Shown piece by piece: positions 776 through 35,282 of a DNA stretch of 40,130 nt. The notes under the pieces were generated by a model. That model did no database searches. It saw only the letters and a list, made by a program, of their open reading frames with translations, and had not been told where the DNA came from. Made by a program: the position numbers and the translations under genes. This DNA is from Minisyncoccota bacterium. Its GTDB lineage: Bacteria > Patescibacteriota > Minisyncoccia > Phycocordibacterales > Phycocordibacteraceae. Location: NCBI GenBank assembly GCA_022841985.1, contig JALHQL010000008.1:1-40130 (forward strand), in the 5' to 3' direction. Positions within the stretch are counted from its first letter, which is position 1. Each line of letters starts with the position of its first letter.

Positions 776-1539
776 TGACTATAAAAAACGACATCGAGCG
801 CGCGAATCTCATCGAAGCTGGGAAGCGTCTTGCTGCCGTACTTGCAATACTTCGCACGAAAGTCGCTCCTGGAGTGACAGCCGAAGAGCTCGATGATACT
901 GCAGAGCAGATGATTCGCGACGGAGGTGATACACCCTGTTTCCTCGGCTATACGCCCGAAGGTGCGCAGCATCCGTATCCTGCATCACTCTGCGTCTCAA
1001 TAAATGATGAGGTCGTGCACGGCATTCCGAATGAATCGGTAAAAATTTTAAAAGAGGGCGATATCGTGGGGCTCGATCTCGGTCTTATGCATAATGGCAT
1101 CATTGTTGATGCGGCTATTACCGTGCCGGTGGGAAAGGTGAACGAGGAGACAAAGAAGCTTCTTGTCGCGACTGAACAAGCGCTTGCTGTGGGTATCGTG
1201 CAAGCCGTTCCAGGGAATCATATAGGCGATATTTCATACGCTATTCAGAAAGAGATCGAAAGCGCAGGCTTTAAAGTGGTCAAAGAACTCGGTGGACATG
1301 GAGTCGGCGAGTTCGTCCATGAGGAACCTTTCATCCCTAACTTCGGTCGCCCGGGCAAGGGAGAATTACTCAAAGAGGGCATGGTGCTCGCTCTTGAGCC
1401 TATCTCGACCGCTGGTAAGGCAGCAGTTATCCTCGCTTCTGACGGATACACGTATCGAACCAAAGATGGTTCACGTTCCGCCCACTTCGAGCACACTATA
1501 TTGATTGAAAAGGGCGGAGCGCATATTATTACCGAATAG
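775..1539 (+). CDS. map: Methionine aminopeptidase type I
   Basis: Removes the initiator methionine from new proteins. The 254-residue chain is a type Ia form without N-terminal extension. All five metal ligands of the pita-bread fold are visible: D101, D112, H175, E208 and E239. The substrate-contacting histidines are H82 (in VHG) and H182. These sit at a nearly constant offset from the Escherichia coli enzyme, so the fold looks intact. The start is set by the TAATG overlap with adk. No terminator follows; ndk begins 42 bases on. Confidence 0.95.
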   Translation: MTIKNDIERANLIEAGKRLAAVLAILRTKVAPGVTAEELDDTAEQMIRDGGDTPCFLGYTPEGAQHPYPASLCVSINDEVVHGIPNESVKILKEGDIVGLDLGLMHNGIIVDAAITVPVGKVNEETKKLLVATEQALAVGIVQAVPGNHIGDISYAIQKEIESAGFKVVKELGGHGVGEFVHEEPFIPNFGRPGKGELLKEGMVLALEPISTAGKAAVILASDGYTYRTKDGSRSAHFEHTILIEKGGAHIITE

Positions 1540-11980: not shown

Positions 11981-12119
11981 CAAACGAAACGCAGCGAGGT
12001 TTTCCTCGCTGCGTTTCGTTTGGAGTCTTTTGTTACTACCAAACGGGCAAATGAAGAAGAAATTTCGATTTTATTCTTCCGGACAAGCGCTGGTAGTAAG
12101 CTTTTTCTGCAAAGCTTAC
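11981..12119 (+). repeat. Three-hairpin repeat, copy 1 (after RNase J)
   Basis: H1 is a perfect 19-bp stem with TTTT loop (11981-12022) that can also act as terminator. Core A reads TTACTACCAAACGGG (12033-12047). H2 pairs 12053-12063 with 12068-12079 around TTCG. H3 pairs GTAAGCTTT (12096-12104) with 12110-12119. The stop codon of RNase J (12116-12118) lies inside H3. An extra inverted pair ACTACCA/TGGTAGT (12034-12040, 12091-12097) encloses H2. Confidence 0.75.
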
Positions 12120-16125: not shown

Positions 16126-16165
16126 GCATGAGCACTTAATGAGGCGCAAGTATGGAAGCTGAATG

Positions 16166-16279
16166 CAAGAGAGCAAAGCCGCTCTTGTTACCGGCATTCC
16201 CCCAGAAGAATGAAGTGAAGAATCCCTCCTTCATTCGCTCATTCGGTAGTAAAAGCTCGTCATTGTTACGTAGAATGAC
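16166..16279 (-). repeat. Three-hairpin repeat, copy 2 (upstream of secG)
   Basis: In minus orientation: H1 GTCATT/AATGAC (16279-16259), core A TTACTACCGAATGAGC (about 16252-16237), H2 GAATGAAG/CTTCATTC (16236-16208), a G-rich stretch replacing core C, and H3 CAAGAG/CTCTTG (16187-16166). It is the most diverged copy, yet each hairpin is kept. It is the only copy not at a stop codon. Confidence 0.55.
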
Positions 16280-22262: not shown

Positions 22263-22508
22263 ATGAAAGGATTGCACATAACAGAGTTCATCCTCGTGAT
22301 TGTCGGCGGTATCAATTGGGGTCTTGTTGGTCTCGCGGGTCTCATGGGTGCTGCCGATTGGAATGTCGTACACATGATTCTCGGTTCATGGCCATCGGTT
22401 GAAAGTCTCGTATATGTTCTCGTCGGTCTCTCGGCAGTCCATCTTATGATTGCGCATAAGAGTGCTTGCAGGCACTGTGAGGTTTCAGGTTCGGGAATGG
22501 GAATGTAA
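22263..22508 (+). CDS. DUF378 family membrane protein
   Basis: An 81-residue protein with two membrane segments and the DUF378 pattern: ILVIVGGINWGLVGLAGLMG and SLVYVLVGLSAVHLM. The family's function is unknown. The tail carries a cysteine pair (ACRHCEVSG) and then GMGM. Its TAA (22506-22508) lies in H3 of repeat copy 3, and the sequence around the stop (GGAATGTAA, then CTTTGCAGA) is nearly identical to that at the end of RNase J. Confidence 0.82.
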   Translation: MKGLHITEFILVIVGGINWGLVGLAGLMGAADWNVVHMILGSWPSVESLVYVLVGLSAVHLMIAHKSACRHCEVSGSGMGM

Positions 22509-22654
22509 ACTTTGCAGACAAAGTTTGCTCCCTGTGCTCGTTCGGAAAAGAGAAATCAGAATCTCTCTTTCGTCCTACTCGCCTGACAGTAAACTCAGGT
22601 TCACGCAGAAAAGAAACCGCGGCGCATATGCGCCGCGGTTTCTTTTCTGCGTGA
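22506..22654 (-). repeat. Three-hairpin repeat, copy 3 (after the DUF378 gene)
   Basis: In minus orientation: H1 is a perfect 54-bp palindrome (22654-22601); core A reads TTTACTGTCAGGCGAGT (about 22592-22576); H2 pairs AAAGAGAGAT with ATTTCTCTTT (22570-22547) around TCTG; core B/C is CCGAACGAGCACAGGGAG; H3 is AAACTTTG/CAAAGTTT (22526-22507). H3 contains the DUF378 stop codon. Confidence 0.75.
22601..22654. terminator. Perfect 54-bp palindrome, likely bidirectional terminator
   Basis: Bases 22601-22654 equal their own reverse complement; the central part is GCGCATATGCGC and the flanks AAAAGAAACC/GGTTTCTTTT give a T-rich arm in both directions. It forms H1 of repeat copy 3. Confidence 0.7.
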
Positions 22655-30067: not shown

Positions 30068-31273
30068 ATGTTATTTACCTACCACGCTATTGATCAAGAT
30101 GGTCACGAACGAGAGGGAACTATCGAAGCACCCTCGCAGGAAATTGCTGTCTCCGCGCTGCAGCGTCGCAGTCTCATCATATCGGCAATTGCATCCGCCG
30201 AGAAGCATTCGCTGCTTAATTTCGATCTCTCATTTCTCGGAAGAGTTTCCAATAAAGATATCGTTATTTTCTCGCGGCAGGTAGCGACCTTGTTTGAGGC
30301 ACAGGTATCAGTGCTCCGTGCTTTTCGTCTCCTTGCCTCCGAAGTCGATAACAAACAGTTTGCAACTATTCTTGCTGTCGTGGGAGATGATATTCAGGGC
30401 GGCAGTTCCCTGAGCAAAGCTCTTGCTCGTCATCCAAAAATCTTTACGTCGTTCTATGTAAACATGGTCCATGCAGGAGAGGAATCGGGGAAATTGCCAG
30501 AGACGTTTGTGTATCTTGCTGACTACCTCGATCGATCGTATGAGCTTGTCAGCAAGGCCGAAAACGCGCTCATTTACCCTGCCTTCATCATCACGATCTT
30601 CTTTGGAGTGATGGCGCTTATGCTTTCACTCGTCATCCCGAAGATTACCGCCGTTCTGATTGATTCCGGTCAAGAGATACCATTCTACACCGCTATCGTC
30701 ATCGGCCTCTCGAACTTTATCGTTCAGTACGGTATCTTCTTGTTCATTGGTCTTGTCGCCGGCGGCTTCTATCTATGGCGGCTCAAGAAGACTGCCCAAG
30801 GCAAATTTATTTTTGATAGTTTGAAACTCCAGGTTCCCTTTATCGGCGATCTCTACAAGAAGCTGTATCTTTCTCGAATCGCGGACAATTTTTCCACTAT
30901 GCTTCTCTCCGGCGTCTCGGTTGTTGAAGCTCTCGATATTACAAGCTCGGTCGTGGATAATGCCGTCTATACGAACATACTTACGGCGGTTAGTATGGAT
31001 GTAAAGGGCGGAATCTCCATCTCGGACTCTTTCGATAGACATCCGGAGATACCGAGCATCATGGTCGCAATGACGAAAGTCGGTGAGGAGACAGGCGAAC
31101 TCAGTAAAATGCTCACAACGCTCGCCAAATTCTATAATCGCGAAGTGACAAATGCGGTCGACACGCTTGTCAGTCTCATTGAGCCGGCTATGATTGTGCT
31201 TCTTGGTCTTGGCGTGGGTACTCTTCTTGCAGCAGTGCTTATCCCGATTTATAATCTTGCGGGGGGTATATAG
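30068..31273 (+). CDS. pilC: Type IV pilus inner-membrane platform protein PilC
   Basis: A 401-residue platform that passes motor force to the pilin. Two T2SSF repeats are visible (FSRQVATLFEAQVSVLRAFR and ADNFSTMLLSGVSVVEALD), with membrane segments around AFIITIFFGVMALMLSLVIP, IVQYGIFLFIGLVAGGFYL and IVLLGLGVGTLLAAVLIPIY. Its TAG (31271-31273) shares a base with H3 of repeat copy 4. Confidence 0.93.
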   Translation: MLFTYHAIDQDGHEREGTIEAPSQEIAVSALQRRSLIISAIASAEKHSLLNFDLSFLGRVSNKDIVIFSRQVATLFEAQVSVLRAFRLLASEVDNKQFATILAVVGDDIQGGSSLSKALARHPKIFTSFYVNMVHAGEESGKLPETFVYLADYLDRSYELVSKAENALIYPAFIITIFFGVMALMLSLVIPKITAVLIDSGQEIPFYTAIVIGLSNFIVQYGIFLFIGLVAGGFYLWRLKKTAQGKFIFDSLKLQVPFIGDLYKKLYLSRIADNFSTMLLSGVSVVEALDITSSVVDNAVYTNILTAVSMDVKGGISISDSFDRHPEIPSIMVAMTKVGEETGELSKMLTTLAKFYNREVTNAVDTLVSLIEPAMIVLLGLGVGTLLAAVLIPIYNLAGGI

Positions 31274-31397
31274 AAAGCTCGCAGAATCGAGCTTTCTCCC
31301 TGCGTTCGCTTCGGACAAATAAGCGAGGATGCTCATTTGTCGCTCAGCTCGCTTGGTAGTAACGAGGCTATCCACACCCCTGTTTCCGCAAAAGCCT
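31271..31397 (-). repeat. Three-hairpin repeat, copy 4 (between pilC and the pilins)
   Basis: In minus orientation: a weak H1 (GGCT/AGCC, 31396-31366), core A GTTACTACCAAGCGAG (31363-31348), H2 ACAAATGAGC/GCTTATTTGT (31340-31315), core B/C CCGAAGCGAACGCAGGGAG, and H3 GAAAGCTCG/CGAGCTTTC (31296-31273). H3 starts on the last base of the pilC stop codon. It fills most of the 166-base gap before the first pilin. Confidence 0.75.
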
Positions 31398-31439: not shown

Positions 31440-31904
31440 ATGTACAAAAATCGTTCCCAAGGTTTCACTCTCATCGAATTGCTCGTCGTTATCGCTATCA
31501 TCGGCATTCTCTCGGCCGTCGTACTTGCATCGCTTAATACCGCCCGCACAAGAGGTAACGATGCTGCCATCCAGTCCAACCTCGCAGCCATCCGGACACA
31601 AGCCGAAATCTACTACGGAAGTACCGGAGGTAATACGTATGGTGTGGCACAAACCACAGCAGGTTCTTGTGCTGCGCAAGCTAACACTATTTGGGCTGAC
31701 TCTACGATTGCAAGATCGATTACGGCCACTGAAGTTACAAATGGTGCTGGCACCGTCGTTTGTAATAGCAGTCCGCAAGCCTATGCAGTCTCGTCTGATC
31801 TTCTGTCGGGTATAGGCGGCAACATGTTCTGGTGTGTCGATAGTACAGGCAACGCGAAATCGTTAGCAGCAGCACTTGGCGCGGGTGTTACGGCTTGCCC
31901 ATAA
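31440..31904 (+). CDS. Type IV major pilin, paralogue 1
   Basis: A 154-residue prepilin with a short leader (MYKNRSQG) cut before F9 by PilD, then FTLIELLVVIAIIGILSAVVL with E5 of the mature chain. The globular part is small and rich in Gly, Ala, Thr and Asn; cysteines at GSCAA, VVCNS, FWCVD and TACP could form two disulfides. TATAAA stands five bases before the ATG. It is followed after 30 bases by a paralogue whose first 105 bases are strongly similar at DNA level. Confidence 0.9.
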   Translation: MYKNRSQGFTLIELLVVIAIIGILSAVVLASLNTARTRGNDAAIQSNLAAIRTQAEIYYGSTGGNTYGVAQTTAGSCAAQANTIWADSTIARSITATEVTNGAGTVVCNSSPQAYAVSSDLLSGIGGNMFWCVDSTGNAKSLAAALGAGVTACP

Positions 31905-31934
31905 TCACGGTTTTGAGAAATAGGGTTCGAAAAC

Positions 31935-32423
31935 ATGACAAAACTACGAGGCTTCACTCTCATCGAATTACTCGTCGTCATCGCCATCATAGGAGTACTC
32001 TCGGCCGTCGTACTTGCATCGCTCAATACAGCTCGCTCGAAAGGCAACGATGCTGGTGTGAAGGCGAACCTCAATGCAGTGAACGTCCAAGCAGCGCTCT
32101 ATCTCTCGGACAATGCCAATTCTTATGGTACGTTCGACGACGGCGCTGGTGCTGCTGCAGCTTGTCCAACCTCTGGTTCCGGGTCTGTCTTTCATGATAC
32201 GACCATCATGAGAGCAATTGCTGCCGCTCTGTTGGATTCCTCCGGCGGTTCAGCTACATGTCTCTCGACAAACGTCGATTACGCGGTTGCAGTGTCGCGA
32301 CCGGCAGAGGTCGCTACAACGACCTCAACGTATTGGTGTATCGATAGTGGCGGAAGTCGTTGCGGAGTCAATTCAAACGCTTTGACCGGAGCTTCGTGTG
32401 GTGCGTGTGTGACCTCTCTATAG
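31935..32423 (+). CDS. Type IV major pilin, paralogue 2
   Basis: A 162-residue prepilin with leader MTKLRG, then FTLIELLVVIAIIGVLSAVVLASLNTAR. As in paralogue 1, the C-terminal half has paired cysteines (AACP, ATCLS, YWCID, SRCGV, SCGAC). The globular parts of the two diverge while the helix is conserved, so both could share one fibre or be alternative pilins. A strong terminator follows at 32446-32476. Confidence 0.9.
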   Translation: MTKLRGFTLIELLVVIAIIGVLSAVVLASLNTARSKGNDAGVKANLNAVNVQAALYLSDNANSYGTFDDGAGAAAACPTSGSGSVFHDTTIMRAIAAALLDSSGGSATCLSTNVDYAVAVSRPAEVATTTSTYWCIDSGGSRCGVNSNALTGASCGACVTSL

Positions 32424-32489: not shown

Positions 32490-33248
32490 ATGGTTCTGTT
32501 ATTTTCTATCGGATTCTTCTTGCTTGGCGCGATTGTTGCGAGTTTCGTGGGAGTCGTCGTCGCGCGACTCAACACCGGAGAGAGTTTCCTTATCGGCCGC
32601 TCACGTTGCGATGCATGTGCCGAACCGCTTAAGTCTCAGGCTCTTGTGCCGATCCTTTCCTATTTCGTTTCAGGTGGGAGGGCACATTGTTGTGGCGCGC
32701 GCATTTCCGTGTATGCCCCTCTGATGGAATTCTTACTCGGCGGACTTTTCGTGCTCGCGTATCTGGTACTCGATCTCGTAAGTGCGCTTCCGTTCATGCT
32801 TCTTTCACTCGCAGTACTGCTTGCGCTTGTCCTCTATGATCTGCTGCATCAGATACTGCCATTTCCGATGCTCGCTGCATTTATCGTGTCGGCGGCCATC
32901 ACGGGTTTCTTGTCGGCATATTCAGTACCCGCTTTCGTGGATACGCTTCTCGTTGCGCTCCTTATTGCGGCGAGTCTCGCGCTTATTCATGTCCTATCTC
33001 GCGGCCGAGCAATGGGTCTTGCAGATGCTCCGCTTGTTTTCGGACTAGCGCTCCTTGTCGGTCCCGCAGCTCTTTCCGGATTTGTTTTTTCATTCTGGAT
33101 CGGGGCTGTTATTGGGATAGTCATATTGGCGCGAAGGCCACGAGGCTCTAGAATGGGAGTTGAGGTGCCGTTTGCGCCCTATCTCGCGGCTGGTTTCCTC
33201 CTTGCTTACTTTACCCAATGGAACCCCTTCATCCTCATCATCGGTTAA
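32490..33248 (+). CDS. pilD: Prepilin leader peptidase PilD
   Basis: A 252-residue polytopic aspartic protease that cuts prepilin leaders after glycine and may methylate the new N-terminus. The N-terminal part has CDAC and HCCGARIS; the second pair is CC preceded by AH, whereas the family has GxCxxCGA, so the zinc site is altered. The two catalytic aspartates are in YDLLHQILP and GLADAPL. About seven membrane segments follow. ATG at 32490 is preferred over an upstream GTG (32436) that would run through the terminator. Confidence 0.9.
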   Translation: MVLLFSIGFFLLGAIVASFVGVVVARLNTGESFLIGRSRCDACAEPLKSQALVPILSYFVSGGRAHCCGARISVYAPLMEFLLGGLFVLAYLVLDLVSALPFMLLSLAVLLALVLYDLLHQILPFPMLAAFIVSAAITGFLSAYSVPAFVDTLLVALLIAASLALIHVLSRGRAMGLADAPLVFGLALLVGPAALSGFVFSFWIGAVIGIVILARRPRGSRMGVEVPFAPYLAAGFLLAYFTQWNPFILIIG

Positions 33249-33991
33249 CCCTGTCTTCAGGGTTGGCTACCAAGCGAGTGAGACAAAAGAAAAATTCTGA
33301 TTTTTCTTTTGCGAACGAGCGGCGGGAGCAAATCCGGCGCAACGCCGGATTTACGCTGATTGAAATGACCGTAGTGTTGGCGATTATCGTTGCTATTACC
33401 GGTCTTATACTGACTAACCAGACCTCTTTTAATAAAACACTTGTCCTTGCAAATACTGCATACGATATAGCACTTACATTGCGATCATCGCAGACTTATG
33501 GTCTCGGCAGTCGTGCATTTGGCGGGGCAGTAAATATGGGGTACGGTCTGCATTTTGCAATAACATCACCCGAGTCGTTTACGCTCTTCGCTGACGTTTC
33601 TCCAGCCCCGAGTCCTTCTAATTGTCATGGTCTGCCGGCTGGTGGCCAGAATTCTCCTAATGCGAAACGTGGAGATTGTGCATACAATGATCCTGCTCTT
33701 GAAAGAGTTAAGGACTATAACCTCGAGAACGGTGTGTATATACATGATTTATGCATGTATAACTCCAACAATTGGACTTGCACGTATGCGCATGACGGAG
33801 CTTCCGGAGGGGTATCCTTTCTTGATATTGTTTTTGCACGGCCTAATCCCGATCCGTTTATAGATGGACGTACAAATAGGAGAGCGTGTATTACCATTTC
33901 TTCGCGTCAGGACAGTTCCCATCGCCGTTTTATCTCGGTGACGGAGTCGGGACAGATAAATGCAAATGCTTCTTCATGTCCAACACTATGA
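33218..33991 (+). CDS. GspH/FimT-like pseudopilin with repeat-derived leader
   Basis: A prepilin-like protein with the class III signal GFTLIE at 44-49 and helix MTVVLAIIVAITGLIL. The body (about 180 residues) ends with a block around RRACITISSRQDSSHRRFISVTESG, typical of GspH/FimT-like minor pilins that prime the fibre. The leader is unusually long: 44 residues from the ATG at 33218 (overlapping pilD by 31 bases) or 24 from GTG at 33278. Most of it (ATKRVRQKKNSDFSFANER) is encoded by repeat copy 5. The true start is uncertain. Confidence 0.8.
   Translation: MEPLHPHHRLTLSSGLATKRVRQKKNSDFSFANERREQIRRNAGFTLIEMTVVLAIIVAITGLILTNQTSFNKTLVLANTAYDIALTLRSSQTYGLGSRAFGGAVNMGYGLHFAITSPESFTLFADVSPAPSPSNCHGLPAGGQNSPNAKRGDCAYNDPALERVKDYNLENGVYIHDLCMYNSNNWTCTYAHDGASGGVSFLDIVFARPNPDPFIDGRTNRRACITISSRQDSSHRRFISVTESGQINANASSCPTL
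33246..33352 (+). repeat. Three-hairpin repeat, copy 5 (pilD stop into pseudopilin 1)
   Basis: The best-formed copy. H1 AACCCTG-TCTT-CAGGGTT (33247-33264) overlaps the pilD TAA (33246-33248). Core A is GCTACCAAGCGAG. H2 is a perfect 11-bp stem around TCTG (33285-33310). Core B/C is GCGAACGAGCGGCGGGAG. H3 is AAATCCGGCG-CAA-CGCCGGATTT (33330-33352). Cores and H2 are translated in the pseudopilin frame. Confidence 0.8.
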
Positions 33992-34599
33992 AAAATAAAA
34001 CTCTGCCTTCAGAGTTTGCTGTCAAGCGAGTCAAGCGTTTCATGCGTGCGACCGAGGCGAGCGCCGGGAGAAAAGCCGTCCGCGGATTTACCCTCATCGA
34101 AATTATCGTGGCGGTCGGGCTTTTTACTGTTGTAATGACGCTCGCTTCAGGTGCCTATCTCATCATAATAAATGCTAATCGACAGGCCCAGAGCGTCGCG
34201 ACTGGCATTAACAATCTCTCTTTTGCACTTGAGACTATGACGCGCAATATTCGCACTGGCACGAACTACGGATGTCCCATAGCCGGGAGCGATTGTCCGA
34301 GCGGGGGCAGCAGTTTTCAATTTACTAATAGCGATGGTGTGCTAGTTACATACAGTCGTTCCGCAGCGTCCGCAATTCAAGAAACAAAAGTTGCCGCAGT
34401 AAGGACACTTACGGATCCCTCGGTGAGCGTATCTTCTCTTGTATTCTATGTGTCTGGTACTGCCACGAGGGCATCAGGTGACTATCGACAGCCGCGAGTT
34501 ACCATTGTTGCCTCGGGTACAGTTTCTTCGGGACCGGGAAGACCGCCCGAATCCTTTACTATTCAAACTGGTGCGACCACGCGTGGTTCTGATATATGA
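33988..34599 (+). CDS. Minor pilin (PilW/GspJ-like) with repeat-derived leader
   Basis: A 203-residue prepilin-like protein. The start overlaps the previous stop (ATGA at 33988-33991). The leader is 33 residues up to G33, then FTLIEIIVAVGLFTVVMTLASGAYL with E5. The body contains ALETMTRNIRTGTNY and a late SLVFYVSGT, the pattern of PilW/GspJ-type subunits. The leader section AVKRVKRFMRATEASAGRKAVRG is encoded by repeat copy 6 and aligns with the leaders of its two neighbours. Confidence 0.83.
   Translation: MKNKTLPSEFAVKRVKRFMRATEASAGRKAVRGFTLIEIIVAVGLFTVVMTLASGAYLIIINANRQAQSVATGINNLSFALETMTRNIRTGTNYGCPIAGSDCPSGGSSFQFTNSDGVLVTYSRSAASAIQETKVAAVRTLTDPSVSVSSLVFYVSGTATRASGDYRQPRVTIVASGTVSSGPGRPPESFTIQTGATTRGSDI
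33998..34089 (+). repeat. Three-hairpin repeat, copy 6 (inside minor pilin leader)
   Basis: H1 AAACTCTG-CCTT-CAGAGTTT (33998-34017), seven bases after the upstream stop. Core A is CTGTCAAGCGAGT. H2 is reduced to GCGTTTCATGCG-like remnants. Core B/C is GCGACCGAGGCGAGCGCCGGGAG. H3 (34072-34089) has one mismatch. The whole copy is read as protein. Confidence 0.7.
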
Positions 34600-35282
34600 G
34601 TATGAAAGGATTCACAGGGTTCACTACCAAGCGAGTAAAACAAGAAGAAAATTCCAATTTTTCTTTTGCGACCGAGGCGTGCACCGGGAGAAAATCCGTC
34701 CGCGGATTTACCCTCATCGAGGCTCTAGTTGCCGTTACTATCGTCACTTTTGCGGTCACGGGACCATTGTTTACCGCAAATCGTGCGATTGTTGCCGCAC
34801 AGAATACCCGTTTGCAACTCACTGCCTCATACTTGGCACAAGAAGGTGTTGAGTACGTGCGCGCGATGCGGGACGATACGTATCTTGCCGCATATCAAAG
34901 GGGCGGCCCAAATGTTTCAAGAGACGCATGGAGCGAGTTTATTAATGGGCTGAGCGCGGGATCAATTACCCAGTGTCGCACAGATACCTGTATGCTCGAT
35001 CCTACTCTCCCTATGGGCGTGGGAGCGATAGGGAGTAATAATTCACTTCAGACCTGTTCGGGGTCATGTGCTCGTCTCTATATAGCAAACAACGGAACGA
35101 GCAATATCTACACTCCACGCACGGATCTTGGTGGCACTATCACTCCTTTTACACGTACGATACGAGTGGATGATATTTTGACAGACACTAACGATAAACG
35201 CATTGTTTCTACCGTGTCATGGAATTTTCACGGAACCCCATACTCAATGACGATTACGGATCATCTTACGCCATGGCAATAA
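34596..35282 (+). CDS. Minor pilin (PilV/GspI-like) with repeat-derived leader
   Basis: A 228-residue prepilin-like protein starting in the ATGA overlap with the previous gene. The leader has 37 residues (to G37), then FTLIEALVAVTIVTFAVTGPL, with the A.EALVA pattern common in PilV/GspI subunits. AQEGVEYVRAMRDD and the late IVSTVSWN are also seen in that class. Cysteines at TQCRTDTC and QTCSGSC may pair outside the cell. The leader section TTKRVKQEENSNFSFATEA is encoded by repeat copy 7. Confidence 0.83.
   Translation: MSMKGFTGFTTKRVKQEENSNFSFATEACTGRKSVRGFTLIEALVAVTIVTFAVTGPLFTANRAIVAAQNTRLQLTASYLAQEGVEYVRAMRDDTYLAAYQRGGPNVSRDAWSEFINGLSAGSITQCRTDTCMLDPTLPMGVGAIGSNNSLQTCSGSCARLYIANNGTSNIYTPRTDLGGTITPFTRTIRVDDILTDTNDKRIVSTVSWNFHGTPYSMTITDHLTPWQ
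34610..34709 (+). repeat. Three-hairpin repeat, copy 7 (inside minor pilin leader)
   Basis: Only the right arm of H1 remains (CAGGGTT, 34615-34621). Core A is CACTACCAAGCGAGT. H2 pairs 34642-34653 with 34656-34667 (10 Watson-Crick and two G-T pairs). Core B/C is GCGACCGAGGCGTGCACCGGGAG. H3 is AAATCCG/CGGATTT (34692-34709). Confidence 0.75.

Follow-up and report, generated by a model that had tools for sequence, protein, structure and literature searches.

In-frame palindromic repeats in the prepilin leaders of a patescibacterial pilus cluster

The window analysed here is a 40,130-nucleotide stretch of DNA from a Minisyncoccota bacterium of the family Phycocordibacteraceae (NCBI GenBank assembly GCA_022841985.1, contig JALHQL010000008.1). 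It corresponds to contig C8 in a genome of 671 kb (label G000) that is 98% complete, and all sequences compared are metagenome-assembled genome assemblies. The window carries a pilus cluster that comprises ATPase and membrane genes, two short-leader pilins, a prepilin peptidase of the A24 family and three long-leader pseudopilins. The leader peptides of these three pseudopilins, and a palindromic repeat of 84 nt (28 codons), hereafter called element 1, that is read in frame within them, are the subject of the present analysis.

The two pilin genes (31440..32423, forward strand, with starts at 31440 and 31935) have ordinary short leaders, MYKNRSQG and MTKLRG, and neither contains the repeat according to R1, a covariance model built from ten copies of element 1. 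The prepilin peptidase gene (32490..33248, forward strand; PF06750, E 2.3e-22) lies directly upstream of the pseudopilin genes, all on the same strand, and encodes the presumed enzyme of leader removal. Pseudopilin gene 1 (33218..33991) has a leader of 44 residues (33218-33349) reading MEPLHPHHRLTLSSGLATKRVRQKKNSDFSFANERREQIRRNAG and followed by FTLIE; its mature part begins at Phe codon 33350 and the N_methyl domain (PF07963) covers residues 40-64. Gene 2 (33988..34599) starts in an ATGA overlap with the stop of gene 1, with an alternative in-frame ATG at 33976, and its 33-residue leader (33988-34086) is MKNKTLPSEFAVKRVKRFMRATEASAGRKAVRG, then FTLIE. Gene 3 (34596..35282), which overlaps the stop of gene 2 in the same manner (ATGAGTATGA), has a leader of 37 residues (34596-34706), MSMKGFTGFTTKRVKQEENSNFSFATEACTGRKSVRG, again before FTLIE. 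Leader lengths are counted from the first plausible ATG and are possibly overlong in a few cases. In all three pseudopilins, the Pfam N_methyl domain directly follows the leader, as in prepilins of the G|FTLIE type, and the repeat is found in these three of the seven N_methyl matches of the genome. The closest named relatives with the same leader peptide are assemblies of Kaiserbacteria, Nomurabacteria and other Parcubacteria. A first-pass annotation, made from the window alone, had singled out these three consecutive long leaders as in-frame translations of repeat copies, and on both points it is borne out by the models.

Element 1 consists of two covarying hairpins with tandem G-A motifs, arranged as CTACC-AA-GCGAGTGAG-{stem-loop}-CGAACGAGC-GCA-GGGAG-C-{stem-loop ending TTT}AC, where GCGAGUGAG facing CGAACGAGC forms two tandem G-A steps between Watson–Crick pairs, as read from the sequence. 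In the R1 alignment, 89.6% of cells are paired and changes on both sides occur at 15 pairs; none of 500 shuffles equals the covariation score, which is lost when the pairing is slid by one to three columns. R1 finds exactly 7 matches in the window and 28 in the genome, including the reverse strand of copy 5, so that the genome holds approximately 27 copies. The element is present in 61 of 93 congeners, relatives are recognisable in 24 of 380 genomes sampled across the phylum, and no copy has an Rfam match. The tandem G-A core (GCGAGYGAG...CGAGCGAGC) recurs, with other outer stems, in elements at intergenic positions across Patescibacteria (loci L181-L202, other families), often after tRNA or gene ends; apparently, these elements constitute an undescribed superfamily.

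Copies 5, 6 and 7 (all on the forward strand) occupy the leaders of genes 1, 2 and 3, respectively. Copy 5 (33267..33354) is full (R1 92 bits, fold z -5.25), and its terminal TTTAC provides the Phe-Thr codons of the processing site. Copy 6 (34019..34091) is decayed (30 bits, z -0.37), and copy 7 (34624..34711), translated between the two motifs of GFT-TKRV...RGFT-LIE, is partly decayed (58 bits, z -0.33). Two of the leaders contain, in addition, a partial upstream copy. In gene 1 this is AACCCTGTCTTCAGGGTT (33247..33264, forward strand), the 3′ hairpin belonging to a tandem element that comes before copy 5; it matches the 3′ hairpin of the element copies of G111 and G008 (AAACCCTGTCTTCAGGGTTTAC); in gene 2 the sequence AAACTCTGCCTTCAGAGTTT (33998..34017, forward strand) folds and resembles the 3′ hairpin of the element. 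In one detail, the picture of a single module that is a hairpin between genes and a peptide here is not upheld: copies 6 and 7 fold no better than shuffled sequences, so that among the leader copies clear structure is restricted to copy 5.

Comparison of orthologues in congeneric genomes shows the same site both empty and filled. In gene 3, the site is empty in G004 (MSMKGFTLIE) and in G069 (MSMKKFTGFTLIE); it is filled in G063 (MKGFT-IKRERQKRNSYFSFANERREQTRLCGFT-LIE) and similarly in G008, G002 and G111, the last having two tandem in-frame elements, while G060 has three in a row. G023 retains merely a 5-codon remnant, FTTKR. For gene 1, filled sites occur in G022 and G008, and other filled pilins are found in G060 (contig C54), in G014 (contig C28) and twice more in G008. 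Among 143 leaders of orthologues of the three genes, 71 have 12 residues or fewer, and a hand tally gives approximately 16 with inserts of four recognisable kinds. On the gene-3 tree, about six changes are needed to account for the element-bearing rows, and their grouping into a single clade is rejected (approximately unbiased (AU) test, p = 0.007). The proposal that the leader is a natural landing site for a selfish element is thus supported: a site that tolerates insertion would be expected to appear both empty and filled among orthologues and to receive unrelated palindromes at the identical position.

What this earlier proposal did not contain is the nature of the target, nor that several elements and families are involved. 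Border statistics were derived from 82 copies; the 83-copy set behind them represents the best-scoring part and contains training sequences. At the left, the last four bases up to the border are in most cases TTAC, CTAC or TCAC, i.e. YYAC; at the right, most copies end in TTAC or TTAT, and all 15 of 15 leader copies in TTAC. Since the TTT of the right-hand TTTAC lies inside the 3′ stem, it is part of element 1. The five-mers at the two borders are often unlike each other, which speaks against a target duplication. The Phe-Thr codons of prepilins (GFTLIE) read TTYAC in a fixed phase and fit the YYAC target. Leader copies make up 15 of the 82, a biased rate; the unbiased one is the 3 of 27 in the window’s genome, to be compared with a chance expectation of 0.07-0.16 for 27 copies on seven prepilin sites (P 4e-5 to 6e-4), computed among non-coding YYAC sites with a non-coding fraction assumed to be 8-20%. 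Gene 2 adds a detail on the origin of these codons: mature residue 1 is Tyr in relatives (GYTLIE) and Phe in the window (GFTLIE), a single case that would mark the FT codons as supplied by the element. G081 had been considered as a second such case and is not upheld by its DNA; the stored sequence of this genome is N-masked almost exactly across the gene 3 leader (locus L024, around 1405-1505).

The position is also used by palindromes unrelated to element 1. Element 2 has the terminal inverted repeats CCCGTTAGA...TCTAACGGGG and 5-bp target duplications, and is thus a miniature inverted-repeat transposable element (MITE). It occurs in 22 of 380 genomes (a reversed control pattern gave no match) and lies at FT|LIE in five genomes, G014, G007, G016, G186 and G256. 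The last two, which belong to two other families and carry it in their pilins, were retrieved with a pattern written for FT|LIE and hence provide no test of position preference; the other three were found independently of it. In G014, the gene 3 insert CCCGTTAGAGAC...GTCTCTAACGGGG stands between two copies of TTCAC, and the near twin G029 is empty there; in G007 and G016, the element lies in gene 1. Its 5-bp duplications are TTNAC-like at this site; those that are readable are TTCAC, TTGAC, TTTAC, CTCAC, CTAAC, CAGGC and CGCGC. A fourth palindrome interrupts gene 2 of G028 at GYT|LIE (Tyr-Thr at the same codon position) between two copies of TATAC (locus L222, around 1440-1525, minus strand).

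It is considered highly probable that a palindromic mobile element inserts at the FT site of prepilin genes, rebuilds G|FT-LIE and is tolerated as the leader is removed. Element 1 would insert 3′ of YYAC, its own right end carrying TTTAC, and every G|FTLIE gene would present a TTYAC target whose frame is fixed. With a length of 28 codons and an end that encodes G-F-T, the unit would recreate the processing motif before LIE upon insertion. Because the added residues would all fall upstream of the processing site, in the segment cut off by the prepilin peptidase, such insertions would be tolerated at nearly no cost, and insertions elsewhere in genes would be purged. Outside prepilins, none of the eight open reading frames crossed by copies has a Pfam domain, and no confident coding insertion was found. 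Element 2, with its TTNAC-like duplications, would exploit the same site. Target preference combined with purging outside a removable leader is the simplest account of these data. The broader proposition, that the Phe-Thr codons form a phylum-wide TTYAC landing pad for several unrelated palindromic elements, which restore the cleavage site on insertion and whose product is removed by the host peptidase, is put forward with less assurance, as somewhat probable.

Other explanations deserve consideration. Translation could begin downstream, the repeat being a 5′ untranslated hairpin, and potential starts do exist within copy 5 (GTG 33278) and copy 6 (ATG 34042). However, gene 3 lacks any in-frame ATG, GTG or TTG beyond 34602, and in the leader of G063 no start codon lies inside the element. 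Moreover, the starts that precede the repeat are conserved among congeners whether or not they carry it, both for gene 1, where ATGGAACCC (MEP/MES...) is kept genus-wide, and for gene 3, where the ATGA overlap is conserved. It is because these conserved starts lie upstream that the repeat is taken to be translated. Finally, the 13 leader copies, chosen solely by their downstream LIE codons, are all open and 12 of them are in phase, compared with 9 of the 34 remaining bordered copies (Fisher 5.6e-5, an optimistic value since some of the 13 are probably co-inherited); a downstream start is therefore highly improbable. Alternatively, the repeat could be a functional device, either an RNA structure or a charged leader, serving translation coupling, timing or membrane targeting. 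The leaders do remain basic, the genes are translationally coupled via ATGA overlaps and copy 5 folds strongly. Against this, copies 6 and 7 have kept an open frame in the absence of folding, and only a remnant of five codons persists in G023. In addition, empty sites are common, unrelated elements occupy the same place and about half of the 143 orthologous leaders do not exceed 12 residues. A role in targeting or coupling, which the first-pass annotation had offered as an alternative, need not be invoked, given the many orthologues whose leaders number 5-10 residues, and such a device is judged improbable.

Several observations nevertheless weigh against insertion at the FT site followed by removal with the leader. 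The gene 3 leader of G071 contains a near-perfect palindrome of about 170 nt that is in frame and lies off the FT site (locus L018, around 1290-1500), showing that the position of the insert is not always FT|LIE. The gene 3 copies of G008, G002 and G111 probably derive, according to the tree, from one common insertion, and the counts are accordingly not fully independent. In the window, copy 7 appears to be a chimera of two subfamilies, its 3′ half sharing 94% identity with copy 6 across 54 nt (34047-34100 in gene 2 versus 34667-34720 in gene 3), a segment that spans the repeat end and the FTLIE codons; this suggests recombination between neighbouring pilin genes. The last two points would favour the view that the long leaders were inherited as protein segments and duplicated together with paralogous pilins after descending once from an intergenic repeat. 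However, the genes that are filled differ among genomes (gene 1 for G022 and G008, gene 3 for G063 and G060, and further pilins for G060, G014 and G008), the filled rows do not form one clade and a second element family behaves likewise. Protein ancestry is largely refuted by the empty and filled pairs, as well as by compensatory changes in an intergenic DNA module, and is regarded as quite improbable.

A further group of adverse observations concerns the mobilising enzyme. No transposase was found for element 1, and no autonomous partner with matching ends was found among the loci of the tyrosine transposase family Y1_Tnp. According to R1, element 1 is absent within about 1.5 kb of all 31 Y1_Tnp loci (0/31), and the five Y1 genes inspected have their own hairpins, unrelated to it. 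The sole Y1_Tnp of the window’s genome is a broken remnant (contig C2, 72380-72562) of 67 aa with one stop. These results bear most directly on the possibility, compatible with insertion into a removable leader, that element 1 is a repetitive extragenic palindromic (REP) element mobilised by a REP-associated tyrosine transposase (RAYT). Its tag before the 3′ hairpin, G(G/T)AG (GGAG in 50 and GTAG in 9 of 82 copies), and the CT at its left border point in this direction, as does the presence of Y1_Tnp in 58 of 93 congeners, associated with that of element 1 (Fisher 0.013, phylogeny not controlled). In view of the missing linkage, such mobilisation is possible although doubtful. Y1_Tnp genes of approximately 225 aa (loci L101, L098, L106 and L097) were seen to have one-base-loop hairpins of their own nearby, some on both sides; that of L101 is AAAGTTAGGACATC N GATGTCCTAACTTT.

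The other copies in the window lie outside the pseudopilin genes. Copy 1 (12036..12119, forward strand; R1 66 bits, fold z -2.37) is intergenic and adjoins a terminator-like hairpin, a feature found just 5′ of several intergenic copies. Copy 2 (16165..16249, reverse strand; 40 bits) is diverged. Copy 3 (22505..22589, reverse strand; 83.5 bits, z -2.46), also intergenic, adjoins a palindrome of 29 nt, and copy 4 (31273..31359, reverse strand; 66 bits), an intergenic member of a second subfamily, lies 3′ of a pilC-like gene. At 2228-2373, the window has a match to 6S RNA that is below threshold (29.6 bits, gathering 46.4, E 0.024).

These findings bear on how mobile repeats can persist in streamlined genomes of about 0.7 Mb that have little intergenic room: a segment that is translated and then discarded would offer them a place. 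They would also account for the strong variation among prepilin leaders in these Patescibacteria, in which the annotation of leader length and of gene starts easily goes wrong. It follows, as a prediction, that a class III signal needs only TTYAC at its processing site to be able to host elements of this kind.

Searches of the open-access literature turned up no account of mobile repeats residing in prepilin leaders. The nearest precedent for in-frame insertion is provided by Rickettsia palindromic elements (RPEs) (PMC10969869, PMC3733652), which have a CGTC tag at one end (PMC3733652). Element 1 likewise inserts in frame in coding sequence and has no known dedicated transposase; it differs in sequence and phylum, lacks the CGTC tag and has the ends CTACC and TTAC. 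In addition, RPEs occur in a wide range of unrelated genes, with a peptide that is assumed to remain in the protein, whereas the confident coding copies of element 1 are solely in prepilin leaders, whose removal is expected. REP elements are characterized by hairpins and tags (PMC8266576) and are linked to TnpA-REP (RAYT) proteins (PMC8266576, PMC3733652). With these and with bacterial interspersed mosaic elements (BIMEs), element 1 shares intergenic hairpins, a GNAG tag, tandem arrays and the CT at the border. However, it combines two hairpins and tandem G-A motifs in a unit of 84 nt, has GTAG in 9 of 82 copies only, does not lie beside Y1 genes and numbers approximately 27 copies instead of hundreds. 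IS200/IS605 elements end in hairpins, have a fixed tetranucleotide beside either end and produce no clear target duplication. The hairpins of element 1, its left YYAC and right TTAC or TTAT and its often differing five-mers resemble a derivative of this group, but no autonomous partner with its ends was found at the Y1 loci. Element 2, with perfect terminal inverted repeats and a 5-bp duplication, fits the MITE definition; element 1, apparently devoid of target duplication, does not. Inteins and IStrons are mobile DNAs residing in genes whose effect is undone after expression. Here, removal of the leader would fall to the prepilin peptidase of the host and not to self-splicing, and a class removed by a peptidase would thereby join the few known insertions that are tolerated through removal of their product.

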